Shown: positions 4,822 to 35,294 of the stretch, piece after piece
How positions within the stretch are numbered: the stretch's first letter is position 1
Layout of the letters: each line of letters begins with the position of its first letter
Program-made: the position numbers and the translations under genes
The notes under the pieces: model-generated
What the model was told of the DNA's origin: nothing
What the model saw: the letters and a program-made list of their open reading frames with translations, nothing else
The model's database searches: none
Assembly (NCBI RefSeq): GCF_002149035.1
Contig: NZ_NGFP01000060.1
Coordinates: 1-38,006 of the forward strand
DNA length: 38,006 bases
Source: Streptosporangium minutum
GTDB taxonomy: Bacteria; Actinomycetota; Actinomycetes; Streptosporangiales; Streptosporangiaceae
Reading direction: 5' to 3'

Positions 4822-4847
4822 GGGTCGCATCTCCAGTGTGCGATCAA

Positions 4848-4883: not shown

Positions 4884-4980
4884 GCCTTTTATGGTGTCAA
4901 TGGCCGCGTCCGCGTCACGGTTGATGGTCATGGCCCTATCTGGGAGCACCTCAATCACCAGGTGGGGGCTCACGGACTCG

Positions 4981-5334: not shown

Positions 5335-5358
5335 GAACGGTGACGCTACGACCGCGCA

Positions 5359-5387
5359 TAGACACCGACATCAGTGGCGTTGATACT
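5359..5387 (+). promoter_or_regulatory. promoter of the XRE regulator
   Basis: TAGACA (5359-5364) and GATACT (5382-5387) are separated by 17 bases, a good housekeeping-type -35/-10 pair. The predicted transcript would start near 5394, just before the ribosome binding site GGAGGAG (5397-5403). Confidence 0.5.
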
Positions 5388-5414
5388 TTGGCGAGGGGAG
5401 GAGCCAAGCACGCG

Positions 5415-6659
5415 ATGGCGGGTTACCTTGAGGCCATGGCCTACTCAGACCCGGCGGCGGAGAGTGTGGGAACCCGTGTGCGGCGCGCTCGTAAGCGTGC
5501 CGGCATCACCCAGAGCGAGCTTGCTCGGCGCGTCGGTCGTGCGCAGTCCTGGGTGTCCGGGATCGAGAACGACAGCATCCCCCTGGACTCCATCGCACTG
5601 ATCAACACCCTCGCCCGTACTCTGCGCGTGCACCCCAACGAGCTCACCGCACGTCCTTACCGAGGTGACACCCCGGGTGAGGACCGAGGGCATTCCGCTA
5701 TCCCCGAGATCCGCCGGCATCTGGAGCGTTACGACCTGGATCCGGAGTGGGACGGCGAGGTGCGGCCGCTGCCCGAACTGCGTGCCGTAACAGAGCACAT
5801 GAGCTGGCTACGGCGAGAAGCGCACTACGCAGAACTGGCCGACAGGCTTCCGGGGCTCCTCTCCGAGCTCCAGGCGGCCACCCACCTTTTCCCTGAGCCC
5901 GATCGAAGCACGGCGTTCGGGCTGCTCTCTTTCGCCTACCAAGCAGCAGACTCGGTGGTCTACAACCTGGGTTATGCCGACCTCTCCCTGATCGCCACCA
6001 GCCGGGTCCGCTGGGCGGCCGAGCGCTCAGGGGATCCCTACCACGGGGCAGTATCCGCTTATCTTCGGATACGGAACCTGTGGTCCAGCACCTCATGGAA
6101 CGACGCCCTCACCGTGCTCGACTCGGCGTGCGCAGGCATCGAGGACGAATACACCGCAGGCCAGCCGGAGGCACTGGCGGTCTGGGGTGCCCTGCAGCTC
6201 AGAGCATCGATCACCGCCGCTCGCAAGAACGATACCAACGAGGCATGGTCACGCCACCGTCTCGCGAGCGAGGCGGTCACCCGGCTCGGCTCTCGCCAGC
6301 GCACCAACTACTACGAGCTGTGCACCAACCAACCCAACATCGACATCCACGGCGTCGCCATCGCTGTCGAACTCGGTGACGGACCACAGGCCGTACGCCG
6401 GGGAGAGGCGGTCCGACTCCCCAAGGACCTGCAGGCCAATCGCGTCGGATACCACCACCTCGATTACGCCAGAGGGCTGCTGTGGTCTGGCAAGCGCGAG
6501 GCTGCAACGGCCGAGCTGGAGCGAGCAGAGAAGGCCGCCCCGATGCTCATCCGCAACCACCCGATGGCCCAGCAAGCTGTACGGACCCTCCTGGATCTTG
6601 AGCGCTACAGCTACCGCGAACGCATCCGCCGCCTCGGCGTCCGCATGCACATCCTCTGA
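5415..6659 (+). CDS. XRE-family helix-turn-helix regulator with TPR-like sensor
   Basis: A 414-residue regulator. The N-terminal HTH reads VGTRVRRARKRAGITQSELARRVGRAQSWVSGIENDSIPLDSIALINTLARTL, a typical lambda-repressor-like fold at about residues 14-70. The remaining 300 residues are helical with repeat-like pairs (ALTVLDSACAGIEDEY, AVWGALQLRASITAARK, ARGLLWSGKREAATAELERAEKAA), resembling the TPR-like sensor half of actinobacterial XRE proteins that may bind a peptide or small molecule. I chose ATG 5415 because GGAGGAG ends 11 bases upstream; ATG 5436 is an alternative. A broken DUF397 gene follows 61 bp on, the usual partner of such regulators. Confidence 0.85.
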   Translation: MAGYLEAMAYSDPAAESVGTRVRRARKRAGITQSELARRVGRAQSWVSGIENDSIPLDSIALINTLARTLRVHPNELTARPYRGDTPGEDRGHSAIPEIRRHLERYDLDPEWDGEVRPLPELRAVTEHMSWLRREAHYAELADRLPGLLSELQAATHLFPEPDRSTAFGLLSFAYQAADSVVYNLGYADLSLIATSRVRWAAERSGDPYHGAVSAYLRIRNLWSSTSWNDALTVLDSACAGIEDEYTAGQPEALAVWGALQLRASITAARKNDTNEAWSRHRLASEAVTRLGSRQRTNYYELCTNQPNIDIHGVAIAVELGDGPQAVRRGEAVRLPKDLQANRVGYHHLDYARGLLWSGKREAATAELERAEKAAPMLIRNHPMAQQAVRTLLDLERYSYRERIRRLGVRMHIL

Positions 6660-6720
6660 GACACCTGACCTGGTGATCATGTGTCGGGGCTGACAATCCC
6701 ATACGGGTGGAGGCGGAGAT

Positions 6721-20503: not shown

Positions 20504-20551
20504 CGTGTGTGCGGAGCGGTCCCCGGCCGCCGCCGCGCTGCCTCGACCTCT

Positions 20552-20722
20552 CCGAGTCCGGGACAGGCGTCGAGGGGCCGGGGATCGCAGGCCTGGTTAC
20601 CCGTCTTTCTGAGCTTGGATCAGGCGTCGAGGGGCCGGGGGCCGCACGCCCGGCTACCCGTCTTTCCGAGTCTGGATCAGGCGTCGGCGGGCCGGGGACC
20701 GTACACCCGGCTACCCGTGATC
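20552..20722. repeat. three 57-bp tandem repeats spanning the NACHT gene stop
   Basis: Units start at 20552, 20609 and 20666, each 57 bp, sharing GGCGTCGAGGGGCCGGGG and CTACCCGTCTTT. The third unit contains the last codons and TAG of the NACHT gene (20711-20713). Because 57 is divisible by three, ribosomes reading through would meet the equivalent TAG at 20654 and then TAA. The array fills almost the whole gap to the sirtuin gene. Confidence 0.9.
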
Positions 20723-23227
20723 GGTGAGCCAGGACTGCAACTCATGGTGCCGGAACTGGTAGCCGGTACCCGCCACCCGCAGGAGCCCCGCCTGGCACGC
20801 CCATTGGCAGAACGCGGCGAACCGCCATGGCAGCCGCCCGCGCAGGGCGGCGAGCATGATGCCGATCGCGTAGTACGCGCCGCTGCTTCCCACGGTGAGC
20901 CCGCCCATGAACGCCAATACGAGCCCACCCACGAGCCCGGACCAGAGCCCCACTCCGAGATCGGCCCGGATCCCCATCGGGGGATCGACCACGGCCCCGA
21001 GCGCGACCATGAGCCCGAAGCCCACCGCGATCGTGATCACTACTGACAGGCGATCCTCTTCTCCGCTCTCGCCTTGGGGGATGAATCCCTGCGTGGACGT
21101 GAAGGAGGCGAGCATGACGAATGTGAGCCCGAATATGAATCCGAACGGCCCTCCCACGACCCCTCCCGTGATCCCGAGTACGAGACCGGATGCCAGACCG
21201 AACACGAGGTCGAGGTGGACGGCCTGCCGAGGGGAGACGAGATCGGCTGACGGGTTCCACGACCCCCGACCGCCCATGAGCCCGAACACGAGCCCGCCGA
21301 CGGGCCCTCCTACGAGCCCGAATACGGCCATCACCACGAGCTCGGACTTCACGGTGCCGAACACGCTTCCGATCGCGGCCAGGCCCACGATCAAAAGTCC
21401 GCTCATGAGACCGCCCCCGAGGCCGGCCTGGAGTGCGGGGGCGGAGATGTTCCGCATGGCGACGTGGGGTGCGGGCCATTCGGTGCGGTAGACGAGGAGG
21501 GGGAGGAACGTCACCCCGAGGACGGCGCCCAACACCCAGCGAGGGGCCTCGTCGGGCCAGGGGGCGGGCGGGAACGGGGTGAGAACGAGGGCGGCGACGG
21601 TGACGATGCCGACGAGCATCGCTGTGGTGTGCAGCAGGCGGGTCAGGCGGCGGCCGCCGATCGGCCACAGCAGGTGCGGGACGATGTCGACCCCGGACAT
21701 GCCGCTGGGGGCGGGGTGGTGCCGCAGGTAGTCGGCCTGCCAGCGCAGGTGCCGGGCCAGTACGGTGAGCCACCGCTCCACCTGCTCGGGGGTGTAGGAG
21801 CCACGGCCGCGGGGGGTCAGCGCGGTCGCGGCCGGGATGAAATTGGCCAGCATGCTCCCCTCCAGCCGCTGCCGGGTCTGGGCTGCCGTCTCCGTGCTGT
21901 GGCGGTCGGCATGGGGGACGAACTGGGCGGCCTGGCCGGGGTCGTGGTCGATGGCGCTGGTGGCCAGGATCAGCCGCCAGGGTGTGGACAGGAACTCCCG
22001 CACGCCCGCGTGCCCGGAGTGGTCGAGCCGGTCCAGTACGGCTTGCCAGGCGTGGTGCTGGCGGGGCTGGTACCGATAGCGCCTGTGCAGGTAGTCGGTG
22101 ACCTGCGGAACGGTGAGCGGCCGGATGGTGATCTGGCGGGCGTGTTCGAGCAGCAGGCCGCGTTCGATCAGCTGGGTATGGCGGCCGGGACGGGTGGTCA
22201 CCACCACCGGGCCGAACGCCGCACCGGTGTAGAAGCGGTTGAGTTCGTCGATCAGCGCGGCCGCCCGCCCTGGTGCGGCGTCCTGCCTGTCCAGGGCATC
22301 ATCCTGGTCGCCCGGCGCCGGGTCGGTGCCGGGGACGGGGTCGCCGCCGTCGGCCTGGATGGGATCGGGGTCCATCTCGTCCAGGCCGTCCAGGATCGGG
22401 AGGACGGCGTTCTCGGCGACCAGACGCCCGGCCTCCTGAGGGGACATGGCATAGCCGAGGACGAGCTGGTCGGCCAGCCAGTCGGCCAGCGGCCGGCCGG
22501 TGGGCCAGGAGGCGGCGCTCAGGCGGATCGCGACCGGTCCGCCGGCGGCGGGGTCGTCGAGGACGGCCTGGTTCAGGTCGATCACCATCTGGATCACGAG
22601 CATCGTCTTGCCTGATCCCCGCTCCCCGACGATGATCAGACGCCGGCCGGGCAGGGCCGAGAGATAACCGGCGGCGTTGGCCAGCGTGCCCTGTCCGGCC
22701 GGCGGCACGTCGGCGCCGTCCTGGGGCGGGAGGGGGTCGGTCTCCTGCCAGAACAGCAGCCCCGCCGCCTTCTTCGACACCCACCTCGCCACCGCGCCGC
22801 CCTCTGGCTCCCGGCCGTCGCCGTCACGGTCGCGGTCGGCGCTGTAGCCGGCGGCCGCGGGATCGGTGTCGTCGAAGGACAGATCGGCCGCGATGACACC
22901 ACGCAGCAACGCCGCCCGCACCTGGCATTCCTGTTGATGGACCTGGCGGGCCAGAGCCACCCGCACCGGCTCCGGCGCGGTGGAGCGGCGAGCGGTGAGG
23001 GAGGGCACCACGATGCTCACCACAGCCAGCGGGAGGCCGATGATCTGGCTGATGTTCGCCACGGTGGTGAGCCAGTCGGGACCTCCCGCGGCGACGATGA
23101 GGTAGATCGAGCCGCTCAGGAGGATCGTGAGCCCGATCGAGATCAGCCCCAGCCGCGTGGACGCCCGCGACCGCCGCCACAGATTCCGCATGATCGTATG
23201 ATGATGCGTTCCGTCCCGATCTGGCAT
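20711..23227 (-). CDS. NACHT-domain NTPase with membrane segments
   Basis: An 838-residue protein. Residues 25-80 hold two transmembrane helices (LGLISIGLTILLSGSIYLIVAA and IIGLPLAVVSIVVPSL). A linker leads to the NACHT P-loop LIIVGERGSGKTML (Walker A at 201-208) and Walker B AVLPILDGLDEMDPD (274-286) with the small-residue/acidic pattern of STAND NTPases. An acidic insert follows, then VVTTRPGRHTQLIERGL (sensor Arg). Residues 545-760 contain many Gly/Ala-rich membrane helices, and the end is soluble. NACHT ATPases act as ligand-triggered switches, and some are anti-phage sensors; the membrane end suggests a membrane-acting effector. The start could also be ATG 23191. Its 3' end lies in a 57-bp repeat array. 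Confidence 0.85.
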   Translation of the reverse strand: MPDRDGTHHHTIMRNLWRRSRASTRLGLISIGLTILLSGSIYLIVAAGGPDWLTTVANISQIIGLPLAVVSIVVPSLTARRSTAPEPVRVALARQVHQQECQVRAALLRGVIAADLSFDDTDPAAAGYSADRDRDGDGREPEGGAVARWVSKKAAGLLFWQETDPLPPQDGADVPPAGQGTLANAAGYLSALPGRRLIIVGERGSGKTMLVIQMVIDLNQAVLDDPAAGGPVAIRLSAASWPTGRPLADWLADQLVLGYAMSPQEAGRLVAENAVLPILDGLDEMDPDPIQADGGDPVPGTDPAPGDQDDALDRQDAAPGRAAALIDELNRFYTGAAFGPVVVTTRPGRHTQLIERGLLLEHARQITIRPLTVPQVTDYLHRRYRYQPRQHHAWQAVLDRLDHSGHAGVREFLSTPWRLILATSAIDHDPGQAAQFVPHADRHSTETAAQTRQRLEGSMLANFIPAATALTPRGRGSYTPEQVERWLTVLARHLRWQADYLRHHPAPSGMSGVDIVPHLLWPIGGRRLTRLLHTTAMLVGIVTVAALVLTPFPPAPWPDEAPRWVLGAVLGVTFLPLLVYRTEWPAPHVAMRNISAPALQAGLGGGLMSGLLIVGLAAIGSVFGTVKSELVVMAVFGLVGGPVGGLVFGLMGGRGSWNPSADLVSPRQAVHLDLVFGLASGLVLGITGGVVGGPFGFIFGLTFVMLASFTSTQGFIPQGESGEEDRLSVVITIAVGFGLMVALGAVVDPPMGIRADLGVGLWSGLVGGLVLAFMGGLTVGSSGAYYAIGIMLAALRGRLPWRFAAFCQWACQAGLLRVAGTGYQFRHHELQSWLTDHG

Positions 23228-23265: not shown

Positions 23266-23379
23266 TGTCAGCGGCGGGTCCGGCCGGTGTAGACGTGTGA
23301 CCGTGTCAGCGGTGGGTCCGGCCGGTATAGATGTGTGACCGTGTCAGCGGCGGACCCGGTCGGCGTAGACGTGCAACCG
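23266..23379. repeat. three 38-bp tandem repeats spanning the ESX-like gene stop
   Basis: Units start at 23266, 23304 and 23342, 38 bp each, sharing TGTCAGCGG, GGTCCGGCCGGT and TAGA.GTGTGACCG. The third unit contains the last codons and TGA (23344-23346) of the 80-aa gene. The period is not a multiple of three, so downstream copies are in other frames. Confidence 0.9.
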
Positions 23380-23586
23380 GGTCGCGGCCTCGGCCAGGTC
23401 GGCGGAGGCCGCGGTGCAGGCGGCGATGTGGGCGTTCACGGTCTCCAGCAGCCACTCCGGTGCGACGCCGTCTCCGTCCAGCCGGGCCCCGATCTCCCGC
23501 AGGCGTTCGGCGCATTCGGCGAGCACGCGGGCATCGGACCGCAGGACCTTGGCGTGGGCGGTGATCGCCTGGGGAACGGCGGGCAT
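23344..23586 (-). CDS. small ESX/WXG-like helical protein
   Basis: An 80-residue, almost entirely helical protein: two long helices (residues 3-33 and 44-77) joined by GDGVAPEWLL. Size and helix-turn-helix shape match the ESX/WXG and EspC-like type VII secretion proteins, though no exact WxG is present (the turn is PEWLL). GAAGGAG 7 bases upstream supports ATG 23586. It follows the lipase-like gene by 196 bp, most of which is a repeat array, and is probably in the same transcript. A joint role with the lipase, whose N-terminal half is also helical, is an inference. Confidence 0.65.
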   Translation of the reverse strand: MPAVPQAITAHAKVLRSDARVLAECAERLREIGARLDGDGVAPEWLLETVNAHIAACTAASADLAEAATRLHVYADRVRR

Positions 23587-23612
23587 CCGGATACTCCTTC
23601 AGTTAGACGGTC

Positions 23613-23797
23613 GAGGACACCGGGTCAGGGGGTCCGTACGAGGACACCGGGCCAGGGGTCCGTACGGGAACGTCGGTCAGGTGGTCCGTACGGGGACACC
23701 GGGTCAGGTGGTCCGTAGGGGAACGTCGGTCAGGTGGTCCGTACGGGGACACCGGGCCAGGGGATCCGTACAGGGACATCGGTCAGGTGATCCGCAT
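23613..23797. repeat. seven 26/27-bp tandem repeats spanning the lipase gene stop
   Basis: Seven units of alternating 26 and 27 bp (starts at 23613, 23640, 23666, 23692, 23719, 23745 and 23772) share GGTCAGGTGGTCCGTAC. Two versions alternate, one with GACACCGG and one with AACGTCGG, which suggests growth by doubling of a two-unit block. The last unit contains the final codons and TGA (23783-23785) of the hydrolase. Confidence 0.9.
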
Positions 23798-26209
23798 CGG
23801 GACAGCGGCGGCGCGGAGGGTCTGGTGGGCGACGGTGGACAGGCACAGCAGCGGGCGGGCGCCGTCGAGGCCCAGCTCACGCAAGTGCCGTGCCATGGGG
23901 TGGGCCGCCTGCCCGACGGTCAGCCGTGCCCGTGGCGCGGGATGCGCCCGTCCCCGGCCCCGGGTCTCGACGCACGACCGCAGCGTGGCGCCCTCGCGGC
24001 GGGAGTAGCCGACCAGGTCCCAGGCTCCGGCCGGGATCCCCGGGCCGAGGGGGCCGCGGAAGGCGAGGAGCCTGCTGTCCGGGCCGCCGACCACGACGCG
24101 GGCGGACCTCGCCGTGACCGCGACGTCCAGGGGCACGACGGACGGCTCGCAGCCCCAGATCTCCGGCGCCACGGCCGACACGGTGTCGGTGTCGACCACG
24201 GAGCCGACGAGAAAGCTGCCGGAGCGGCGGCGGTCCGCTCTCCGGACGAGATCCGGCCAGACCCGGAACGGCCGCGGCCGCCACGGGTCGTGTACGACGA
24301 TCCCGAGGTGGACCTCACGGTAGCCGCCCAGACTGGTCCGCCGGTTCCAGAACGCGTGGACGGCGACGAGGGCGCGCCCCGCGATCTGGACGGCGGGCCC
24401 GAGCCCGGTCCCCTCCAGCAGGGCCGCCGCCACGCCCGGGTCGGCGGCGAAGTAGGCCGTGAGGGCGGAGCCGTCCTGGCATCTGACCGGCAGTTCGAGC
24501 GTCCCCCGCGAGGTCGCCGCCGGATAGGTCGGCACGGTGAGGAAGGGGAAGCCCTCGGGGTGGGGGTCGCGGTCGGACAGCAGGTAGGCCTGCGAGCGGG
24601 TGACCGGCCCCCGGTACGGCGTGAGCTGACGGTCGATCCGGTCGCGGGCCTCGGGCAGGTCGTGGGCGAGGTTGGCGGTGTAGCGCTCGATGCTGTGGCA
24701 GATCGGGAACAGGTGGGTCGGGTCGGAGTAGTCGACCACGTACCAGCCGGGATGCAGGTCGAAGCAGCCGCCCGCGCCCTGCCCGTCCAGGGTGGGGATG
24801 ATGTCGTGCTGGTTGGTGACGCTGGCGATCCACGTCCGCGGGTCGGCGGGCTTCTTGAAGTCGACCGGCGACCCGACGGCCACGGCGTGGGTGACGGTGT
24901 AGCGGGCGCAGAACTCCGGGTCCTGCGCCAGGTTCATGATCGCCGCACCGCCCGCGCTGTGCCCGACCAGGGCGATCTCACCCCCCGGCGGGATGCCGAA
25001 GTCGTCGACGGCTTTGATCAGCGCGCGGCTGTAGGGGCCGCTGTCGAGTACGGCGCTGCTGAAGGCGCCGAGCAGGTCCTGCGGGGAGCCGTTGTCGGGC
25101 CGGCCGGACCTCATGCCGGGCGCCTGGACGACGTGGCGCACCACCCCGTCCGGGCCCGCCACGCTCTGGATGAGCACCCGCCCGGTCGTGCCGAGGGCGC
25201 CGATGTTGCGGAGGAAGCCGAGCAGCGACCCCTCCGAGCTCAGCCGCGTGACCTCGGCCGGGGCCGGCTCCAGCCGGCGCGCGCCGCCTTCCCCCGTGTC
25301 GAGGACCGCTACGGCCCGGTTGCTCATGCCGATGATCGGGTCGGCGCTGGCGTACCCCTTCCCGGTCGCGATCAGCCAGGCGGCGGTGTCGTTGAGCGGG
25401 TTCTCGTCCAGCAGGGCCCGCAGGGCGAGCACCTCGCCGAAGACCGGGGCGAGCTCGCTGAGCGTGCGTACGGCGCCGCGGTCCCTGAGCAGGGCGCGCA
25501 GCGCCCGGACCGACTCGATGTCGCGGTCGGCGCCGACCGCTCCGATGAGCCTGGCCAGCAGCGGGTCGTCGACCAGCTCCGGATGGTCCAGGGCCACGGC
25601 GGTGATCCGCAGCCGTAGTGAGGTCGCCAGGACGAGGACGGCCAGGCTCTCCGCGCCGGCCATGCCGCCGAGCCTGGCCGCGAGAGCGCCCAGCCGCCCG
25701 CCGGCGACCGCGTATCCGAGCCCCCTCCGATCAGTGACCACGCGGAGCAGGGCACGCTGGGCCCGGTACCCCTCCGCCGGGGCGTACGGCAGGGCGCCGA
25801 GCACGGTGCCGTCGGTGAGCGCCGCCGTGGCGTGGACGGACGCCTCCTGGATCGCCACCCCGATCTCGGACAGCTCCCGGGCCGCGGTACGCAGCAGCTG
25901 CGCGGCCGCGGCACTTTCGGCCAGGGCGCCCGGGGCGGGGGCACCTCCGGCCGGGGCGCCTTCGGCTGGGGCGTCTCCGGCCGAGGTGCTCTGGGCGGGG
26001 GCACCTCCGGCCGGGGCGCCTTCGGCCGAGGTGTTCCCGGCCAGAGCGCCTCCGGTCGGGAGATCCCCGGCCGGGGCGTCTTTGGCCATGGCGCCTTCAC
26101 CCGGGAAAATCCCGGCCGGGGTGTCTTCGGCCGCGGCGTCTTCGGCCGGGGCGGCCTCCCCGCGAACATCGGAGCGGAGGTGGTTCCCGGAGGCATCCGC
26201 GCCGCTCAC
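23783..26209 (-). CDS. lipase-like alpha/beta hydrolase with repeat-rich N-terminus
   Basis: An 808-residue protein. Residues 20-98 are low-complexity Ala/Pro/Gly/Glu repeats (APAGGAP type), followed by a helical region (100-270) reminiscent of ESX-associated domains. The hydrolase core has IALVGHSAGGAAIMNLA (nucleophile Ser418), probable acid Asp469 in NQHDIIP and probable His505 in ICHSIERY, as in lipases of the PGAP1/PE-PPE kind. The C-terminal 280 residues are unassigned. It would release fatty acids or hydrolyse an ester product. The GTG start overlaps the peroxidase stop by 4 bp (GTGA); GGGAG lies upstream. No signal peptide is seen, so export, if any, would not be Sec-dependent. Confidence 0.78.
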   Translation of the reverse strand: MSGADASGNHLRSDVRGEAAPAEDAAAEDTPAGIFPGEGAMAKDAPAGDLPTGGALAGNTSAEGAPAGGAPAQSTSAGDAPAEGAPAGGAPAPGALAESAAAAQLLRTAARELSEIGVAIQEASVHATAALTDGTVLGALPYAPAEGYRAQRALLRVVTDRRGLGYAVAGGRLGALAARLGGMAGAESLAVLVLATSLRLRITAVALDHPELVDDPLLARLIGAVGADRDIESVRALRALLRDRGAVRTLSELAPVFGEVLALRALLDENPLNDTAAWLIATGKGYASADPIIGMSNRAVAVLDTGEGGARRLEPAPAEVTRLSSEGSLLGFLRNIGALGTTGRVLIQSVAGPDGVVRHVVQAPGMRSGRPDNGSPQDLLGAFSSAVLDSGPYSRALIKAVDDFGIPPGGEIALVGHSAGGAAIMNLAQDPEFCARYTVTHAVAVGSPVDFKKPADPRTWIASVTNQHDIIPTLDGQGAGGCFDLHPGWYVVDYSDPTHLFPICHSIERYTANLAHDLPEARDRIDRQLTPYRGPVTRSQAYLLSDRDPHPEGFPFLTVPTYPAATSRGTLELPVRCQDGSALTAYFAADPGVAAALLEGTGLGPAVQIAGRALVAVHAFWNRRTSLGGYREVHLGIVVHDPWRPRPFRVWPDLVRRADRRRSGSFLVGSVVDTDTVSAVAPEIWGCEPSVVPLDVAVTARSARVVVGGPDSRLLAFRGPLGPGIPAGAWDLVGYSRREGATLRSCVETRGRGRAHPAPRARLTVGQAAHPMARHLRELGLDGARPLLCLSTVAHQTLRAAAVPMRIT

Positions 26210-27798
26210 CGCGCTCCCTGCCGGGTCATGCTCACGAAACGCGGTCGCGGGTCCTCCGGGACGTTGCGGTGGAGCACGTCCGACAGTGTCCGCGTGGTGG
26301 CGATGACCTTCATCCCGGGCGGGGAGAAGGTCGCGGCGTTGAACACCCGCGACGCCAGCAGCGGATTGGTCAACGCCTGCGAGAAGGCGTCAATGGCGAT
26401 GATCTTCGTTAGGAGCGGCGGCAGCATGGCGTTCGGGGCGCCCGGCTCCTCGGCGAACAGGCCGACGTACAGATCCAGGTCGTCCACGCTCCGGTAGAGC
26501 TCGCGGAGTGCCTCGCTCACCCTCACGTCGCCGGAGACCTGGTCGAAGCGGCGCACGCGGGGGAAGCGGCAGTGCTCGCGGTAGCTGTTGTAGGGAGCCA
26601 GGTTCAACGCGCGCGATTCGGCGACGCTGGCCACGTCCACCGCCCGCAGGACGGGGTCGGTGTTGAACAGGCCGATGCGCCCCGCGCGCTGCCGGGAGGC
26701 GTCCTCGAAGAGCCGGCCCAGGCCCGGCCCAGGGATGAGCGCCGCACCGACCATGGTCTCCGCCATCGGAAGCTCCCGGTCGCCCACGGCCAGTTTGGAG
26801 GGGATCAGGCTGTGCCAGCGGTAGACGAGGTTGAACTCCGCCGAGGCCCAGTTCTCCCGGTACCAGGGTGCGTGGGCCAGCATGGCGGAGAGCCGCGGGT
26901 CCAGGGTGAAGCGGAAGTGGTAGGGCGTGATGTGGTTGATGTACTCCTCCACCACCAGCTTGATGAGGAGCACGATGAGGATGTTGCGAGCCGTCTGGAA
27001 CAGGCGTTCGTCGTCCCAGTGCGGATAGTGGCCGGCCAGGAGGCGTGCCACCCTGTTGTGCTCGCGCAGGAACAGCACCGTGAGCATGGTGAAACCGATC
27101 TGGATGTTGCCGCGGTCACTGCCCGTCGCGAACAGGGTGTCGCGCTGCGCGTCGGTGAGCTCGTCGAAACGGATCACGCTCAGCGCGGAGAACTCGCCTT
27201 TGATCTTGCCGTTCTCGCAGAGCTGGGGAGGGAACTCCGCCCCGTTGACGATCCGGCTCTTGAGCAGCCCGCCGTCGAACGTCCGGAGGGCGGCGGTCGC
27301 CGCCTCGTCGAGCCCGTAGAGCTGGTTCAGGTCGATGTGGTGGTTCGAGCTGTTCTTGCGCGGATCCCTGGGGACGTGGCTGTCGCCGCGGAGGAACCCG
27401 TCGGTGAACCACTGGGCGAAGTAGGCGAACAGCACGGTGGACCGGGGACACGGGATCATGGCGTCACCCCGGGTGAACAGGTCCGCGGCCTGTTCGGGCG
27501 TGGGCCGGCCGCCCTCGGGTCCGGTGACCGGCGGCATGTGACGCCCGCTGAACGTCCGGTCGGTCAGCGAGGCCCACGAGGTGTAGTCGGCCATGGTGCT
27601 CAGCGGCTCGGGCCGTGGCGGCATCTCGCGGACCGCATGGTCGATCAGAGAGGCGTTGAGGCGCCGCCGTACGGGCTGGACGCGCTGTGCGAGGTCCCAC
27701 AGCGGACGTCCGCTGGTCAGGGCTAGGAACCTGAGACGGTTGGCGGCGCCGTCGGTCGCGATGCTTCTCGCCCGCGCTCTGGTGGGTGCCACCGTCAC
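26206..27798 (-). CDS. cyclooxygenase/alpha-dioxygenase-like haem peroxidase
   Basis: A 530-residue member of the animal haem peroxidase superfamily, closest in motifs to cyclooxygenases and fatty acid alpha-dioxygenases. Seen: FAYFAQWFTDGFLRG, then SNHHIDLNQLYGLDE (COX has DLNHIYGE), FLREHNRVARLL, EEYINHITPYHF and FNLVYRWHSLIPS. In the last, Tyr326 and His329 align with the catalytic tyrosyl-radical Tyr and proximal haem His of COX (YHWH) and alpha-DOX (YRMH). At the distal site COX reads AQHFTH but this protein reads AQWFTD, so the distal His appears to be Asp133. Fatty acid dioxygenation is the likely reaction. GTG start overlaps the P450 stop (GTGA) and its stop overlaps the hydrolase start. 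Confidence 0.88.
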   Translation of the reverse strand: MTVAPTRARARSIATDGAANRLRFLALTSGRPLWDLAQRVQPVRRRLNASLIDHAVREMPPRPEPLSTMADYTSWASLTDRTFSGRHMPPVTGPEGGRPTPEQAADLFTRGDAMIPCPRSTVLFAYFAQWFTDGFLRGDSHVPRDPRKNSSNHHIDLNQLYGLDEAATAALRTFDGGLLKSRIVNGAEFPPQLCENGKIKGEFSALSVIRFDELTDAQRDTLFATGSDRGNIQIGFTMLTVLFLREHNRVARLLAGHYPHWDDERLFQTARNILIVLLIKLVVEEYINHITPYHFRFTLDPRLSAMLAHAPWYRENWASAEFNLVYRWHSLIPSKLAVGDRELPMAETMVGAALIPGPGLGRLFEDASRQRAGRIGLFNTDPVLRAVDVASVAESRALNLAPYNSYREHCRFPRVRRFDQVSGDVRVSEALRELYRSVDDLDLYVGLFAEEPGAPNAMLPPLLTKIIAIDAFSQALTNPLLASRVFNAATFSPPGMKVIATTRTLSDVLHRNVPEDPRPRFVSMTRQGAR

Positions 27799-29264
27799 GC
27801 CCCCTTTCCGTCCGGGCCGGGATTTCCGTCCGGGCCGGGATTTCCGTCCGGGCCGGGATTTCCGTCCGAGCCGGGGCTTCCGTTCGGGTTGGGGCTTCCG
27901 TTCGGACTGGGATTCCCGTTTGGGTCGGGGGCCGCGTCCGGGCCGGGATGCCCGTCCGAGCTGAGACTTCCGTCCGGGCCGAGACCCAGGACGAAGCGGT
28001 CGGGGAAGATCCCGTGGCTACGGGTGATCGCCCCCTCCGGCGGCGGGAGCGTGCGGACCCCGGGGCGGCGGAACAGGCGGCGCACGACCTCGCAGATGAC
28101 GACTCTGGCGGGGTGCACGCCGAGGCAGGCGTGGTGGCCGTGTCCGAAGTGCAGCTGGAGGTGCTCCGGCCGGTCGAGGCGGAAGTCGTCCGGCTCCTCC
28201 ACCACGTCCGCGTCGAACATGGCCGAGGCCGGCGCGGCGAGCACGAACGTCCCCGCGGGGATGACCGTCCGGCGCGGGGTGCCGGCGGCGAGGACGTAGT
28301 CGCGCTCGCACAGCCGGGGGAGCAGCTTGAAGAACGGGCTGAACCGCAGCGCCTCCCAGACATAGCGATCGAAACGGGTGGGATCCGGGTCGGCGGCGGC
28401 GTCGGAGGCCTCCGCCCGCACCCGCGGGCGGAGCATGAGCTGCTCCACCGCCTCCACCATGGCCCCCGGCCCGCTCTCCACGAACCCGAGGGGCAGCCCC
28501 GCCATGTTGATCAGCAGGCGCTCGTCGTCGACGCCGACCTCGGCCGGGAGGGTCGTACGGATGAGGCGGCCGAAGATGTCATCCGGCGGCTCGCACCCCG
28601 CCTCCAGGGCGGCCCGGCGTTCGGCGAGCCGGCCGTGGAGGTAGGCCATCATCTCCTCGCCCGCGCGGACCGACCCGGCCTGGATCGCCGGGTCGCCCTG
28701 GAAGTTGGCGAAGCCGTCGGTGATCACGGCCCGCGTCCACCGCGACAGGGTCTCCGGAGTGGGCCCGGGGAAGCCGAAATACTCCCCGCACACCCGTAGG
28801 GCGACGTGCCGGAAGAGCTCGCCGACGGCCTCGATCCGCCCCCGCCGCGACGCGGCGTCCAGAGCCTCGTCCGCGATCCGCCCCGCCAGCCCGCGCAGGT
28901 CCGCCGCGTCCTGGGGGGCGAGCATGACCTGCATCAGCCCCTTCTCCCGCCAGTTCATCGGCGTCGCGTCCCGGCCCAGCATGAACGGGCCGCCCAGCGC
29001 CGCGTCCAGGCGCGGGCCGAAGGCCCTGACCGTGAAGGTCTCCTCCCGGGAGAGCACCTCGACGACGTCGGCGAAACGGGTCACGACGGTGAAGGCCGGG
29101 GTGACGAAGATCGGCCTCTGGGCGCGGAGCTCCGCGAAGAGGGCGCGCCAGTCCGTGCGCATCCATTCCCGGACGAGGCCGAAGGCGGCCATCGGATCAC
29201 GCGCCACGGCCACGTCGTATCGCTCCAGATGGCCGCCCATGGTCGATTGATCGACAGCACCCAT
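27795..29264 (-). CDS. cytochrome P450, atypical I-helix
   Basis: A 489-residue P450. The haem loop is LHFGHGHHACLGVHPAR (Cys380), the K-helix ExxR is EALR (304-307), and the C-helix region is MNWREKGLMQVM. The I-helix segment (251-266) reads LINMAGLPLGFVESGP and lacks the usual A-G-x-E/D-T acid-alcohol pair used to split O2; P450s that rearrange hydroperoxides also lack it. The last 55 residues are a Gly/Pro/Asp/Asn tail (PGPDGN repeats) not needed for the fold. GGAGG 10 bases before ATG 29264 fixes the start. It heads an operon with the COX-like gene (4-bp overlap) and lipase. A hydroperoxide isomerase or peroxygenase role is inferred. Confidence 0.9.
   Translation of the reverse strand: MGAVDQSTMGGHLERYDVAVARDPMAAFGLVREWMRTDWRALFAELRAQRPIFVTPAFTVVTRFADVVEVLSREETFTVRAFGPRLDAALGGPFMLGRDATPMNWREKGLMQVMLAPQDAADLRGLAGRIADEALDAASRRGRIEAVGELFRHVALRVCGEYFGFPGPTPETLSRWTRAVITDGFANFQGDPAIQAGSVRAGEEMMAYLHGRLAERRAALEAGCEPPDDIFGRLIRTTLPAEVGVDDERLLINMAGLPLGFVESGPGAMVEAVEQLMLRPRVRAEASDAAADPDPTRFDRYVWEALRFSPFFKLLPRLCERDYVLAAGTPRRTVIPAGTFVLAAPASAMFDADVVEEPDDFRLDRPEHLQLHFGHGHHACLGVHPARVVICEVVRRLFRRPGVRTLPPPEGAITRSHGIFPDRFVLGLGPDGSLSSDGHPGPDAAPDPNGNPSPNGSPNPNGSPGSDGNPGPDGNPGPDGNPGPDGKGA
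27805..27930. repeat. seven 18-bp repeats encoding the P450 tail
   Basis: Seven 18-bp units run from 27805 to 27930, the first three nearly identical (TTTCCGTCCGGGCCGGGA), the rest progressively diverged. On the minus strand they encode the six-residue repeat GNPGPD and variants. The gradient of divergence away from the 3' end suggests newest copies nearest the stop. Confidence 0.88.
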
Positions 29265-29342
29265 GCCGTAGGACCCTCCGCTTTACGCGTGAACCGACCA
29301 CTGAAGCCATGGCGAACAGAGATCGTCACTTTCCGTAGCCAC

Positions 29343-29370
29343 AATCTAGGCAGGCGATACATTAGCTCAA
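29343..29370 (-). promoter_or_regulatory. promoter of the P450-dioxygenase-lipase operon
   Basis: On the minus strand TTGAGC (29370-29365) and TAGATT (29348-29343) are spaced by 16 bases, a good -35/-10 pair in a locally AT-rich stretch (29340-29415). The start codon lies about 80 bases downstream. The rest of the 434-bp divergent gap is occupied by the 33-bp repeats. Confidence 0.45.
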
Positions 29371-29514
29371 GATGGCTACTGAATGCATTGTTTTGACTCC
29401 AGTAAGTAATTAAGGCGTCACTTCCCGGCAACTCCCGCCGTCCGGCCGTCCGGCCGTTCAATGGGTGGCCGGACAGCCGGACGGCCCACCCGTTGGACCG
29501 CTCGGCCGATCCGG

Positions 29515-29680
29515 CTCACCGGCGGACCGTTCGTCAACCGGTCCTGCCTGTCAGCCGGGCCGTTCGTCAGCCGGTCCGGCTCACCGGCCGGACCGTTCAT
29601 CAGCAGGCTCGGCTCACCGGCCGGACCGTTCATCAGCCGGTCCGGCCTGTCGGCCGGACCGCGCACCAGGCGGTCTTCGC
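29515..29680. repeat. five 33-bp tandem repeats upstream of the desaturase
   Basis: GGACCGTTC or a close variant recurs at 29524, 29557, 29590, 29623 and 29656, exactly 33 bp apart, within units of the form CCGGCCGGACCGTTCATCAG plus GTCCGGCTCA. They end just before the ribosome binding site of the desaturase. All frames stay open through them on both strands (11-residue repeats), but no frame has gene support, so they are probably a leader or regulatory array. Confidence 0.88.
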
Positions 29681-29698
29681 CGACCGCGAGGAGGCAGC

Positions 29699-30814
29699 GT
29701 GACCACCTCGGCCTTCCCGCCGGGTCAGCCGGAGTCAGGCACGGCCGAGACGGTGGCGGTCACGGCCGGGCGCCGCACCGTCTACCTGGTCGCCCTCGTC
29801 GTCCTGCCGGTGCTGACCCTGGCCGCGGCGGTCCCCGCCGTCTGGGGATGGGGGATCGGTCCGCGCGACGCGGTCATCGCCGTCGTCATGTATCTGATCA
29901 GCATCTTCGGGATCGCCATCGGCTACCACCGGCACTTCACCCATCGGGCCTTCAGGTGCCGCAGGCCGCTGCGCATCGCCCTCATGCTGGCCGGCGGCAT
30001 GGCGCTCGAAGGTCCGATCACGCTGTGGACGGCCGAGCACCGCCGCCACCACAAGTACGCCGACCGGGCCGGCGACCCGCACTCGCCCTGGCGGTACGGC
30101 GACAGCGGCCTGGCCCTGCTGCGCGGCATGGCGCACGCCCACATCGGCTGGTTCTACACCGCGCGCCGCCGCTCCAGCCGGCAGCGCTGGGTGCCGGACC
30201 TGATGGCCGATCCGGACGTCCGGCGGTTCGACGCCGCCTACCCGGCCGTCGCGGCGCTGTCGTTCCTGCTGCCCGCCGCGGCGGGGGGACTGTGGTCGAT
30301 GTCGTGGACCGGCATGTGGACCGCGCTCTTCTGGGGCGGGCTGGTCCGCTACGCCGTGGTGCACCATGTGACCTGGTCGGTGAACTCCATCGCCCACACC
30401 TTCGGCGAGCGCCCCTTCAGGACCAGGGACCGGTCGTCCAACGTCCGGTGGGTGGCGTTCCTGACCCTCGGCGAGGGCTGGCACAACTGGCACCACGTCG
30501 ACCCGGCCTGCGCCCGCCACGGGGTGCTCAGAGGCCAGCTGGACCCGAGCGCCCGGCTGATCCGCTGGTTCGAACGGGCAGGCTGGGCGTACGGCGTGCG
30601 CTGGCCGGACCCCGTGCGCCTGACCGCCCGCCGCGTCGCGGCGGGACCGGGACCAGGAACCTCCGGAGCGGGACCGGGGCCGGAGCCGTCCGAGGCGGGA
30701 TCAGGACCGGAAACCTCCGGAGCGGGGCCGGGGACGTCCGCCGTACGGAATCCCGGGCGACCGGCGCGGGACGGGGAAGGGGACGGCGTCCGCTGGACGC
30801 CACCGCGCGTCTGA
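29699..30814 (+). CDS. acyl-CoA/fatty acid delta-9-type desaturase
   Basis: A 371-residue integral membrane desaturase. The three histidine boxes are present: GYHRHFTHRAF, EHRRHHKYAD and GEGWHNWHH, binding the di-iron site that introduces a cis double bond with O2 and an electron donor. Membrane segments are visible at TVYLVALVVLPVLTLAAAV, AVIAVVMYLISIFGIAIG, YPAVAALSFLLPAAAGG and ALFWGGLVRYAVV. GAGGAGG directly before GTG 29699 fixes the start; the longer frame would translate the upstream repeats. The last 45 residues are a Gly/Pro/Glu/Ser tail. Divergent from the P450 operon; it could supply unsaturated acyl substrate for the dioxygenase. Confidence 0.92.
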   Translation: MTTSAFPPGQPESGTAETVAVTAGRRTVYLVALVVLPVLTLAAAVPAVWGWGIGPRDAVIAVVMYLISIFGIAIGYHRHFTHRAFRCRRPLRIALMLAGGMALEGPITLWTAEHRRHHKYADRAGDPHSPWRYGDSGLALLRGMAHAHIGWFYTARRRSSRQRWVPDLMADPDVRRFDAAYPAVAALSFLLPAAAGGLWSMSWTGMWTALFWGGLVRYAVVHHVTWSVNSIAHTFGERPFRTRDRSSNVRWVAFLTLGEGWHNWHHVDPACARHGVLRGQLDPSARLIRWFERAGWAYGVRWPDPVRLTARRVAAGPGPGTSGAGPGPEPSEAGSGPETSGAGPGTSAVRNPGRPARDGEGDGVRWTPPRV

Positions 30815-30922: not shown

Positions 30923-32932
30923 CTACCCCCTCACCCCCGTCACCTCCTCTCCGCTCACCTCGCCGTCACCCGGGACCAGGGCGCCGCTGAACTGGGCGGA
31001 GTAGAGCCGGTGGTAGGCGCCCCGGGTGGCCAGCAGCTCGTCGTGGGTGCCCTGCTCGACGATGCGGCCCGCGTCCATCACCAGGATGAGGTCGGCGTCA
31101 CGGATGGTGGACAGGCGGTGGGCGATGACGAAGCTGGTGCGGTCGGAGCGGAGGGCGGCCATGGCGTGCTGGACCAGGACCTCGGTCCGGGTGTCGACCG
31201 AGCTGGTGGCCTCGTCGAGGATGAGCAGCGACGGGTCGGCGAGGAAGGCGCGGGCGATGGTCAGCAGCTGTTTCTCCCCGGCGCTGACGTTGTTGCCCTC
31301 GTCGTCGATCACGGTGTCGTAGCCGTCGGGCAGGGTGCGGACGAACCGGTCGACGAACGTGGCCCGCGCGGCGGCCTGGATCTGCTCCTCGGTGGCCCCG
31401 GGGTTGCCGTAGGCGATGTTCTCGCGGATGGTGCCGCCGAACAGCCAGGTGTCCTGGAGGACCATGCCGATGTGCGAGCGCAGGTCATTACGGCGCATCG
31501 CGGTGATGTCGACGCCGTCGAGGGTGATCCGGCCGGCGTCCAGCTCGTAGAAGCGCATGATCAGGTTGACGAGGGTCGTCTTCCCCGCGCCGGTCGGGCC
31601 GACGATCGCGACGGTGTGCCCGGGCTCGGCCACCAGCGACAGGTCCTCGATGAGGGGCTGCTCCGGGTCGTAGCGGAAGGACACCTGCTCGAACTCGACG
31701 CGACCCCGCCGCGAGGTGGGCGGCACCGGGTCGGCGGGGTCCGGGGACTGGTCCTCGGCGTCCAGCAGCTCGAAGACCCGCTCGGCCGACGCCACCCCCG
31801 ACTGCAGCAGGTTGGCCATCGAGGCGACCTGGGTGAGGGGCTGGGTGAACTGCCGGGAGTACTGGATGAACGCCTGGACGTCACCCAGGCTCATCGACCC
31901 GGTGGCGACCCGCAGGCCCCCGACGACGGCGATGACGACGTAGTTGAGGTTCCCGATGAACATCATCGTCGGCATGATGATCCCGGAGACGAACTGGGCG
32001 CCGAAGCTGGCCTTGAACAGCTCCTCGTTCCTGTCCCGGAACACCTGCTCGACCTCCGGCTGCCGCCCGAACACCTTCACCAGCTCGTGGCCGGTGAAGG
32101 CCTCCTCGATGTGGGCGTTCAGGGTGCCGGTGTTGGCCCACTGCGCGACGAAGAACTTCTGCGAGCGTTTCGCGATCTGCGCGGTGACGACCATCGACAG
32201 CGGGATGGTCACCAGGGCGATCAGCGCGAGCAGCGGCGATATCACGAACATCATCGCCAGCACGCCGATCACGGTCAGCAGCGAGGTCAGCAGCTGGCTC
32301 AGCGTCTGCTGCAGGGTCTGGGACACGTTGTCGATGTCGTTGGTGACCCGGCTGAGCAGTTCGCCGCGCGGCTGGCCGTCGAAGAACTTCAGGGGGAGCC
32401 GGTTCAGCTTGTCCTCGACGTCCGCCCGCAGCCGGAACACGCTGCGCTGCACGGCGTCGTTGAGCAGGTATCCCTGCAACCAGCTGAAGACCGAGGCCGC
32501 GACGTAGAGCGCCAGGACCCACACCAGGACCGTGCCCAGCGCGCCGAAGTCGATCCCGCGACCGGGCACGACGTCCATCCGTGCGAGCAGGGCGGCGAAG
32601 TTGTCGTCTCCCGCCGCGCGGGCAGCCTGGACCGCCTGCTCCGTGGTCGTCCCGGCGGGGAGCCGGTTGCCGATCACACCGCTGAAGATCAGGTCCGTCG
32701 CGTGGCCGAGGATCTTCGGTCCCACGACGGCGAACACCACACTGATCACGGCGAGGCCGATCACGGCCAGGATTCTCGGGCGTTCGGGGCTCAGCCGTCC
32801 CATCAGCCGCCGCATGGACGGCCCGAAGTTCATCGACTTCTCCGCGGGCATCCCGGCCCCCCCGAAGGGCCCTCGGCCGAAGCCTCCGCCGCCCGCCGGC
32901 GGTCGTGTGGTCGTCACGGGCCTGTCGCTCAT
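30923..32932 (-). CDS. ABC exporter subunit, catalytically complete half
   Basis: A 669-residue fused permease-ATPase. The N-terminal 320 residues hold six membrane helices after a Gly/Pro-rich lead, then the ATPase: Walker [14 protein letters not shown]-loop [11 protein letters not shown], signature VSAGEKQLL (not LSGGQ), Walker [14 protein letters not shown] with catalytic Glu, and switch His in VIAHRLSTI. Compared with the partner gene the sites are complementary, so the working ATP site would pair this Walker B Glu with the partner's normal signature. Start ATG overlaps the partner's stop as ATGA. Exports a drug, lipid or peptide; substrate unknown. Confidence 0.92.
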
Positions 32933-34662
32933 GCTGCGCTCCCCGCGGTCAGTTGGGATTCGACGATCTCGATGTATGTCGGGCAGGAATCCAGCAGCTC
33001 GTCATGGGTCCCCATGCCGACGATCACTCCGTCGTCGAGGACGATGATCTGGTCGGCGTCGGCGATGGTGGACACCCGCTGGCCGACGATGACGACGGCG
33101 GCCTGGGCGGTGTGCGGGCGCAGGGCGGCGCGGAGCCGGGCGTCGGTGGCCAGGTCGAGAGCCGAGAACGAGTCGTCGAACAGGTAGATCTCGGGTCTGC
33201 TGACCAGCGCCCTGGCGATCGACAGCCGCTGCCGCTGCCCGCCGGACACGTTCGTGCCGCCCTGCGCGATGGGGGCCTCAAGGCCCTCGGGCATCGCCTC
33301 GACGAAGTCGCGGGCCTGGGCGACCTCCAGCGCCTCCCACAGCTCCTCGTCACTGGCGTCCGGGTTGCCGTAACGCAGGTTGCTCGCGACGGTGCCGCTG
33401 AACAGGTACGGCTTCTGCGGCACCAGGCCGATACGCGTCCAGAGCATCTGCGGATCGAGGTCGCGGACATCGACGCCGTCGACCGACACCGTTCCGGAGG
33501 TGGCGTCGAACAGCCTGGGCACCAGGGAGACCAGTGTCGTCTTGCCCGCCCCGGTGCTGCCGATGACGGCGGTGGTCTGTCCGGCGGTGACGCGGAAGGA
33601 GATGCCGGACAGCACCGGTGCCGCCGCGCCCGGGTAGCGGAACTCGACGTCCCGCAGCTCCAGCTCGGCGCGGCCGTGCACCTGCCGTACGGGGTCCCGG
33701 GGCGGGCTCACCGACGACTCGGTGTCCAGCACCTCGACGATGCGCTCGGCGCAGACCGCGGCTCGCGGGATCATCATCGAGATGAAGGTGGCCATCATCA
33801 TCGAGGTGAGGATCTGCATCAGATACATGAGGAACGCGGTGAGGGCGCCGACCTGCATCTCGCCGCTGTCCACGCGGCTCGCGCCGAACCACAGCACGGC
33901 GACGCTGGAGGCGTTGAGGATCAGCATCACGACGGGGAAGATGAGCGCGGTCAGCCGCCCGACGCGCAGCGCGGTCCCGGTCAGCGCGTCGTTCGCCGCG
34001 GCGAACCGGCGGGTCTCCTCGCCCTCCCGGACGAAGGCGCGGACGACCCGGATGCCGGTGAGCTGCTCGCGCAGCACCTGGTTGACCGCGTCGATGCGGT
34101 CCTGCATCGCCCGGAACTGGGGGACCATGCGCGAGACGATCAGACCGATCGACACCAGCAGCGCCGGGACGCAGACCAGCATGAGCCAGGACAGGCCGAG
34201 GTCCTGCCGCAACGCCATGACGATGCCGCCGACGCCCATGATCGGCGCGGCGACCAGCATCGTGCAGGTCATCACCACGAGCATCTGGACCTGCTGCACG
34301 TCGTTGGTGCTGCGGGTGATCAGCGAGGGCGCGCCGAACTGGGCGACCTCCCGGGCGGAGAACCCGCCCACCCGGTGGAAGACGGCCGAGCGGACGTCGC
34401 GCCCGAATCCCATCGCCGCGCGGGAGCCGTAGTAGACCGCCGCGATCGAGCAGGCGATCTGCACGAGGGACACGGCCAGCATCCAGCCCCCGGCGGACAG
34501 GATGTAGCCGGTGTCGCCGGTGGCGACGCCCCGGTCGATGATGTCCGCGTTCAAGCTGGGCAGGTACAGCGAGGCTATGGTGCCGATCAGCTGCAGCACC
34601 ACCACGGCGGTCAGCGTCGACGAGTAGGGCCTCAGGTAGGTGCGGAGCAGCCGGCTCAGCAT
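32929..34662 (-). CDS. ABC exporter subunit, degenerate-ATPase half
   Basis: A 577-residue fused permease-ATPase starting [17 protein letters not shown]. Six membrane helices are followed by Walker [14 protein letters not shown]-loop [11 protein letters not shown] and a normal signature [15 protein letters not shown]. Walker B is [11 protein letters not shown], with Asp in place of the catalytic Glu, and the switch is VGQRVSTI, with Gln in place of His. This is the classic degenerate half of heterodimeric exporters such as BmrC/LmrC-type or TM287. The longer upstream frame overlaps the TetR gene and lacks membrane character, so ATG 34662 is chosen; it overlaps the TetR stop by 7 bp. Confidence 0.92.
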
Positions 34663-35294
34663 GGGTGTTCCCCGTTCGTGGAGTCCGGGTGGAGCGCGTC
34701 GTGCCCGGGGTGCAGGCGGATGCCGTCCAGCAGCGTGGAGACGATCTCCACGGGTGGCAGCGGATCGTCCCCGACGAACCGGGGGTGGCTGAACGCGACG
34801 GCCAGCAGCTGCAGCCGTCGCGCGGCCTCGTGCGGCTCGCACCGCAGCTGATCGGCTGCGGGGCCGATCAGGTCGACGAGCGCCTGCCCGATGAGAACGC
34901 CCTGATCGGATCGGTCGCGGGCCGTCTTGGCGACTCCGTGGCATCCGAGCGTGTCCATCAGCCGGAAGACGCGTGCCGTACGCTGCTGCAGGCACTCGAC
35001 CGCCGCGACGAGCCGGACCGGCAGGGGGGCGGCGCGGTCGATGGCCGCCAGGTCCCGCAGGAGCGGGGAGAGGTCGAAGGCGCTGGCCACGGCCGCGTTC
35101 ACGAGCTCGTCCTTGGTGGCGAAGACCCGGAAGATCGTCCCTTCGGCCACGCCGGCCGCCTGCGCGATCTGCCGGGTGCTCACGTCGGGGCCGTGGGCGA
35201 GCACCAGCGAGAGGGTTGATTCGATGAGCGCGGCACGCCGTTCGTCCGGTGGGAGGGGGGCTGCGCGCTGGGAGGCCAAGATCACCCGGGACAC
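34656..35294 (-). CDS. TetR-family repressor of the ABC exporter
   Basis: A 212-residue TetR-type regulator. The N-terminal HTH (residues 18-62) is RRAALIESTLSLVLAHGPDVSTRQIAQAAGVAEGTIFRVFATKDELVNAA; the helical ligand-binding half follows. It is the first gene of the operon with the two ABC genes, and a perfect palindrome lies 11 bases upstream of its GTG start, so it very likely represses its own operon until a substrate binds. No ribosome binding site is evident and TACTAG ends just before the start, so the mRNA may be leaderless. Confidence 0.9.
   Translation of the reverse strand: MSRVILASQRAAPLPPDERRAALIESTLSLVLAHGPDVSTRQIAQAAGVAEGTIFRVFATKDELVNAAVASAFDLSPLLRDLAAIDRAAPLPVRLVAAVECLQQRTARVFRLMDTLGCHGVAKTARDRSDQGVLIGQALVDLIGPAADQLRCEPHEAARRLQLLAVAFSHPRFVGDDPLPPVEIVSTLLDGIRLHPGHDALHPDSTNGEHPC

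Follow-up and report, generated by a model that had tools for sequence, protein, structure and literature searches.

Do the genes at positions 23344 to 30814 of a 38,006-nucleotide stretch of Streptosporangium minutum DNA (RefSeq assembly GCF_002149035.1, contig NZ_NGFP01000060.1; hereafter the window) make up a bacterial oxylipin pathway? A cytochrome P450 (P450), a haem dioxygenase resembling cyclooxygenase (COX) and a hydrolase are encoded there one after another on the minus strand, followed by a small protein, and a fatty-acid desaturase gene diverges from them on the plus strand. We consider it probable, at roughly 70%, that these genes form a dedicated oxylipin cluster, in which an acyl chain would be desaturated, released, dioxygenated and then rearranged by the P450. 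The source genome assembly is a draft of 9.58 Mb, split into 548 contigs.

Gene order and co-inheritance

The first gene of the operon encodes a P450 of 489 amino acids (27795-29264, minus strand), assigned from its open reading frame (ORF), a Pfam P450 match (E = 1.7e-7) and alignments. It is followed on the same strand by the COX-like haem fatty-acid dioxygenase (530 amino acids, 26206-27798; ORF, Pfam animal haem peroxidase at E = 2e-50, and alignments), by a Lipase_3-like alpha/beta hydrolase with a C-terminal stretch resembling acetoacetate decarboxylase (ADC) (808 amino acids, 23783-26209; ORF and alignments), and by a small protein of 80 amino acids with no convincing family (23344-23586; ORF and relatives' loci). 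Neither of the last two matched Pfam at E 0.01. The membrane fatty-acid desaturase (29699-30814, plus strand) was recognised from a Pfam FA_desaturase match (E = 3.3e-20) and from its relatives. An earlier sequence-only reading of this DNA had described the P450, COX-like and lipase-like genes as joined by two GTGA overlaps, and both the ORFs and the junction letters confirm this: the plus strand reads TCAC at 27795-27798, where the P450 stop overlaps the dioxygenase start, and again at 26206-26209, where the dioxygenase stop overlaps the hydrolase start.

Among 200 genomes of the family, 38 matched the dioxygenase (E <= 1e-10), 32 of them at 58% identity or more (the window's own genome included), two at 46% and four weakly. 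The P450 (E <= 1e-60) and the hydrolase core (E <= 1e-15) were each found in 33 genomes. All 32 dioxygenase genomes held the P450 and all 32 held the hydrolase, compared with one genome each among the remaining 168. The sequence-only reading was to fall if the P450 and the peroxidase were not conserved together in relatives; they are conserved together (32/32 versus 1/168), and the co-occurrence of both with the lipase, which it had proposed to look for in genomes, is near-perfect across the family.

For the loci themselves, 34 of the 35 full-length dioxygenase copies of other genomes were fetched, leaving out a same-score second copy (G064:C39). Thirty-two of these copies are orthologous, and the two distant copies with 46% identity (L064, L065) have no P450 match nearby. 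The P450 adjoins the dioxygenase in 32/32 orthologous loci, although L060 has it only as a remnant of 122 amino acids; it lies within 30 bp in 30 and with the exact 4-bp overlap in 20. The hydrolase is present in 30 of the 32 (as a fragment in L046 and upstream of the P450 in L063), with the exact 4-bp overlap to the dioxygenase in 15 of these 30, and the small protein is present in 20. The desaturase occurs in 28 of the 32 loci, divergent in 24 and co-directional in four; it overlaps the P450 by 4 bp in L058, L059 and L061 and the dioxygenase by 4 bp in L063. These co-directional overlaps indicate that the desaturase link is more than a shared divergent promoter.

In a broader set of 396 genomes of the phylum, the dioxygenase was matched in seven and the P450 in six, the window's own genome being included in both counts. 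Four of the five other genomes with the P450 also had the dioxygenase; in the fifth the P450 match was at 34%. Pairwise ratios of nonsynonymous to synonymous substitution rates (dN/dS) against five relatives ranged from 0.21 to 0.62 (19 comparisons), and in other genera the enzyme genes are again grouped together, which together argue for more than a chance arrangement. That the cluster genes form one unit is well supported by the co-occurrence of dioxygenase, P450 and hydrolase and by the conserved desaturase linkage, including the co-directional loci.

The lone P450 genome (G123) has most of the gene beside a short dioxygenase remnant of 62 aligned residues (L201, 8733-10228), and a gene that resembles a transposase by eye lies about 2 kb away. 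In the lone hydrolase genome (G003) the gene stands at a contig end. Two genomes (G004, G070) have a full hydrolase at another locus, with 53% identity. Thermomonospora echinospora (L060/L163) carries a second dioxygenase copy beside a P450 remnant of about 100-122 amino acids, apparently produced by an internal deletion.

The dioxygenase and its haem partners

The nearest solved relatives of the dioxygenase are COX-2 and COX-1 (E 7.6e-60 to 2.4e-56), and the match to fatty acid alpha-oxidase is far weaker (1.2e-13, versus 7.6e-60 for COX-2). The sequence-only reading had called the protein both COX-like and alpha-DOX-like; the first label holds and the second does not, and a plant-type alpha-dioxygenase is ruled out by the same comparison. 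An animal haem peroxidase of the MPO/LPO type is likewise ruled out, since the distal motif is AQWFTDGF instead of the GQxxDHD described for such peroxidases (PMC4420034, in part). By alignment, Tyr326, Trp328 and His329 of the window protein correspond to Tyr385, Trp387 and His388 of COX, while the distal His207 of COX is replaced by Asp133 (codon 27400-27402, minus strand), with Gln129 nearby. The Tyr, Trp and proximal His (YRWH) and the distal Asp are each found in 129/129 aligned bacterial rows, in which two loci are counted twice (L158/L077 and L163/L060), as they are in the locus count given below. Arg44 stands at what we take to be the place of COX Arg120; this place is occupied by His in L058, L059, L061 and L062 and by other residues in some distant relatives. 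An 886-aa ORF in L076, considered as a dioxygenase fusion, was judged by eye to be a frame extension. We also dropped the idea that the distal Asp marks a dead peroxidase, because the catalytic Asp of dye-decolorising peroxidases (described in PMC4420034, in part) leaves activity possible and because every bacterial row shares this Asp, which is not peculiar to the cluster.

The closest functional precedent comes from Nostoc punctiforme. Its linoleate 10S-dioxygenase is described with the motif F143-t-d-s-F, a catalytic Tyr342 and a terminal Asp486-Ala487, and it oxidises oleic and linoleic acid at C10 (PMC13049297, in part). The 199-residue spacing between the F-T-D motif and the Tyr recurs, with FTDSF, in Nostoc loci such as L111, and the terminal Asp470-Ala471 of the window protein does not vary in 35 family rows or in our alignment A1, in which the ends of the L063 row are some residues off. 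The distal Asp and the shared motif thus point to an enzyme of this kind: judged by its residues, the window protein is a member of the bacterial 10S-dioxygenase clade, of an FTDGF subtype, and is neither a COX nor an alpha-dioxygenase. The Nostoc enzyme needs no more than a monoene as its substrate, in keeping with the presence of a desaturase in the cluster.

The Nostoc dioxygenase works with a catalase-related hydroperoxide lyase (PMC13049297 and PMC9579011, both in part), and partners of two kinds are seen across bacteria. Plasmid records of Sinorhizobium medicae and Rhizobium etli have an annotated P450 next to the dioxygenase, and those of Paracoccus yeei and Methylobacterium currus have catalase-family proteins there. 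From a scan of reference genomes, we kept the best 80 of 366 relatives, ranked by likeness to a cyanobacterial query, so the kept loci are mostly cyanobacterial. Within 2.5 kb of the dioxygenase, 58 of 128 loci have a catalase-related gene, 41 have this P450, 29 have neither and none has both. In L077 (the same locus as L158) a P450 lies about 4 kb away on the other strand. A quick tree of 126 rows (L079, L158 and L163 excluded) gave five changes for the P450 label and 13 for the catalase label, with long branches that leave the deep order unsure. The distal site could be read in 53 of the 58 catalase-related partners, with Thr-His in 45 and another residue before the His in eight. Neither the hydrolase nor the desaturase was matched in the fetched flanks of P450-paired loci from rhizobia, other actinobacteria and cyanobacteria.

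Two loci of this wider set have further genes beside the dioxygenase. In Paracoccus yeei (L080, 2141-4003), the catalase-related gene and the dioxygenase come after a gene whose protein has RoxA-like and cytochrome c domains (1.2e-19). In the cyanobacterial L132, the gene upstream of the dioxygenase (4160-5245), whose start we take to be patatin-like, is a possible fatty-acid-releasing partner.

The P450 of the window keeps the haem ligand Cys380 (FGHGHHACLG) and the ExxR motif, and at the acid-alcohol site of the I-helix it has Glu263-Ser264 in place of the acid-Thr pair (Ser264 codon 28473-28475, minus strand; alignment to 2yoo). In 32 aligned family members, from which the L060 remnant was excluded, the Glu is invariant and is followed by Ser in 16 and Asn in 16, and by Thr in none. 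At the same site, P450s of the window's own genome read by eye have Thr in 21 of 24, Ala in two, Ser in one and Asn in none; these 24 were the readable ones among 30 fetched out of 41 matches, the window's own P450 being among the 11 not fetched. According to part of PMC13049297, Asn occupies this site in prostacyclin synthase, plant allene oxide synthase (AOS), linoleate diol synthase (LDS) and epoxy alcohol synthase (EAS); thromboxane synthase has a nonpolar residue there, some AOS have Thr, and the residue is not indispensable. For these last two reasons the loss of Thr is not decisive, and we read it as a suggestive pointer to hydroperoxide chemistry and not as proof.

Several findings weigh against a P450 that rearranges hydroperoxides, and they leave room for another explanation, in which the dioxygenase makes a hydroperoxide and the P450 is a redox-partner-dependent monooxygenase that hydroxylates or epoxidises a fatty acid or a later intermediate. 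The best solved matches of the P450 are bacterial P450s of ordinary type (2yoo, CYP113A1), and none of the best 60 of 255 solved matches is named CYP74 or prostacyclin synthase (PGIS), although many are named only cytochrome P450. The window P450 itself has Ser, not Asn, and retains the invariant Glu263, and Ser might replace Thr. Ten P450 relatives read outside the family keep Glu-Thr, which suggests that the partner P450 was perhaps an oxygenase of the usual kind at first. CYP107N3 of Streptomyces peucetius is described as epoxidising oleic acid directly (PMC11719350, in part). On the side of the partners, the 29 of 128 loci with neither kind of neighbour include L064 and L065 as well as some at contig ends, and cyanobacterial L122 has a catalase-related gene plus a P450 about 3 kb away. 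The genome has three other desaturases besides that of the cluster, the predicted models were too poor for use (predicted local distance difference test, pLDDT, 55.9 from five rows for the P450 and 42.2 from one row for the hydrolase core), and our literature searches turned up no bacterial relative, paired with a P450, whose activity had been assayed. Nevertheless, an ordinary monooxygenase is unlikely when Thr has been lost in all 32 family members, with Asn in half of them, versus its presence in most P450s of the same genome, and when the P450 exchanges places with catalase-related proteins of a hydroperoxide-reactive type.

The sequence-only reading had likened the locus to fungal and animal systems in which a COX-like enzyme works with a P450, and this logic gains support from the partner swap together with the I-helix change. 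A more ambitious proposal, which we advance only tentatively and would not rely on, is that the P450 became an isomerase, having given up within this clade the Thr that activates oxygen, and thereby converged with prostacyclin synthase, plant AOS and the diol synthases of fungi; that the cluster is a complete prokaryotic oxylipin pathway whose product is an actinobacterial signal; and that the dioxygenases of the clade use interchangeable haem partners, either P450 or catalase-related.

Desaturase, hydrolase and the proposed pathway

The desaturase has the His boxes HRHFTH, EHRRHH and HNWHH, which we take to mark a delta-9 type. Its start is more likely the GTG at 29699 than position 29465, since relative L034 aligns from there. 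The desaturases of L058 and L061 are 57-58% identical to that of the window, about as distant as a paralogue in the window genome (61%), and the desaturase may thus have been recruited more than once. In L063, a flavin amine oxidoreductase gene (9.7e-80; 5128-6660) lies between the hydrolase and small-protein genes and the P450-dioxygenase-desaturase operon.

The hydrolase has a GHSAGG motif, and all 18 aligned members share Ser418, Asp469 and His505, which we infer to be the catalytic triad. Lipase_3 is the family matched most widely, by 15 of the 18 members at E <= 1 (best 9.2e-5), but mostly below the Pfam cut-off of 22 bits, which only L057 (22.8 bits) passes among seven members examined singly. 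No solved structure was matched at E <= 1 by a profile built from the 18 hydrolases. The C-terminal ADC-like stretch (about residues 562-686) scores E 0.15 in the window and at best 4.8e-8 in L063, and it is absent from the short hydrolases of L058, L059, L061 and L062. By eye, members with this domain have no Lys in the WG-type stretch, presumably the place of the ADC Schiff-base lysine, and we read the stretch as a module that is probably non-catalytic or altered. Second hydrolase-like matches with 49-51% identity, two of them partial, were seen elsewhere in three genomes (G000:C124:58295-58822, G180:C69:63708-64310 and G062:C28:366153-367478).

The small protein had been called ESX-like, and this label is weak. 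It did not match the WXG100 family in Pfam at E 0.01, and its only family match was to the SCO5555 family, at 15.8 bits versus a cut-off of 40. The idea behind the label, that the hydrolase would be a substrate of type VII secretion with the small protein as its partner, both unrelated to the oxygenases that they merely adjoin, draws on the position of the small protein after the hydrolase, on that first ESX impression and on long helices at the start of the hydrolase core model, which is of very low confidence (pLDDT 42). We consider it highly improbable, given that the hydrolase accompanies the dioxygenase in every one of the 32 genomes, with a 4-bp overlap of the two genes in half of the loci that have both, and given the small protein's lack of a Pfam match.

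In the pathway that we favour, gene content and linkage suggest that the desaturase would make a cis-monounsaturated acyl chain, probably delta-9, and that the hydrolase would free such a chain from a lipid. A tyrosyl radical of the dioxygenase would then form an allylic hydroperoxide, most likely at C10 to judge from its residues and the Nostoc precedent. The P450 would rearrange this hydroperoxide without a redox partner, as the fungal fusions, the exchange of partners and the altered I-helix site suggest. Our guess is that a diol or an epoxy alcohol comes first among candidate products, with an allene oxide or a cleavage product less likely. The substrates, regiochemistry, order of steps, redox-partner independence and biological role of the cluster are all proposed on this footing. 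The same genes might instead serve in defence against lipid peroxides or in membrane repair: the hydrolase would release chains that have been oxidised, and these would be repaired or cleared by the haem enzymes and the desaturase. A desaturase and a lipase would suit membrane remodelling and catalase-like partners do occur elsewhere, but the dioxygenase retains hydroperoxide-making residues and lacks the distal His of COX, and the patchy distribution (32/200) suits an accessory pathway better than housekeeping. We regard this alternative as quite unlikely.

The divergent intergenic region (29265-29698) presumably holds the promoters for both the P450 operon and the desaturase and contains a 33-bp repeat array at 29505-29675. 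This is one of at least seven minisatellite arrays, with units of 15-60 bp, at gene edges and between genes of the cluster region; the others lie at 20551-20718, 23266-23388, 23615-23808, 25903-26159, 27805-27981 and 30641-30732. A 15-bp array encodes the Ala/Gly/Pro-rich N-terminus of the hydrolase, and residues 429-489 of the P450 form a collagen-like tail of Gly, Pro, Asp and Asn from an 18-bp repeat array, which is absent in most relatives. Downstream of the cluster, a NACHT-domain protein (9.7e-10) is encoded at 20711-23227, and a NACHT-like gene with 27% identity also adjoins the distant dioxygenase copy in L065. On the other side, two overlapping ABC exporter genes (30923-34995) adjoin the desaturase. 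Among the loci compared, they do so elsewhere only in the near-identical L032, and L051 has similar exporter genes (66-75%) about 4 kb past the hydrolase. The exporter pair is probably outside the cluster.

Relation to known systems

The COX-like dioxygenases and P450s that work together are separate proteins in animals and are fused to each other in fungi (PMC13049297, in part), and in 2015 bacterial cyclooxygenases were described only as putative sequences (PMC4420034, in part). In titles and abstracts of the top-ranked matches from open-licence literature, we found no description of a bacterial gene pair of COX-like dioxygenase and P450, and the terms 'actinobacteria' and 'bacterial P450' were unmatched in the first part of a 2024 review of C18 oxylipins. 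In public records, neighbours of this kind already carry the annotations 'peroxidase family protein' and 'cytochrome P450'. The pairing can therefore be seen in databases, yet it is apparently undescribed in the literature that these searches covered. A conserved bacterial operon would present it as discrete genes, whose proteins would aid the structural work that is lacking for the fungal enzymes (PMC13049297, in part), and would be a sign of actinobacterial oxylipins yet to be discovered. It would also allow a test of whether the neighbour of a bacterial dioxygenase, P450 or catalase-related, sets the product.

Two bacterial systems resemble the cluster in part. The oleate-diol synthase pathway of Pseudomonas aeruginosa would likewise start from the 10-hydroperoxide of oleic acid and pass it to a second enzyme. 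It is set apart by the description of both its enzymes, which have two CXXCH haem motifs each and are grouped with the di-haem cytochrome c peroxidases (PMC4496055, in part). MnHPL of Methylobacterium nodulans is, like the enzyme proposed here, a bacterial P450, and is named a hydroperoxide lyase; unlike it, MnHPL belongs to the CYP74 clan, and the part of its description available mentions no pairing with a COX-like dioxygenase (PMC10813956).

The animal systems, COX with prostacyclin or thromboxane synthase, share with the window the COX homology, the equivalents of Tyr385 and His388, and a P450 without the I-helix Thr. They differ in the distal His207, which the window lacks. At the place of Arg120 the window does have an Arg, Arg44, but not all relatives of its dioxygenase keep it. 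The window also has Ala471 at what we take to be the place of COX Ser530. The Nostoc enzyme likewise has Ala there (PMC13049297, in part). We would not expect a C20 polyene as substrate of the window dioxygenase.

Fungal dioxygenase-P450 fusions (linoleate diol, epoxy alcohol and allene oxide synthases) are alike in pairing a COX-like dioxygenase with a P450 and, as far as their P450 domains could be compared by description, in the Asn at the I-helix site, which half of the clade has. In contrast to these fusions, the cluster has separate overlapping ORFs, a distal Asp in place of His, and a desaturase and hydrolase of its own. The Nostoc punctiforme system shares the distal Asp, YRWH, the F-T-D motif, the terminal Asp-Ala and a partner encoded by a separate gene; the cluster departs from it in having a P450 for the catalase-related partner, an added hydrolase and desaturase, and FTDGF for FTDSF.

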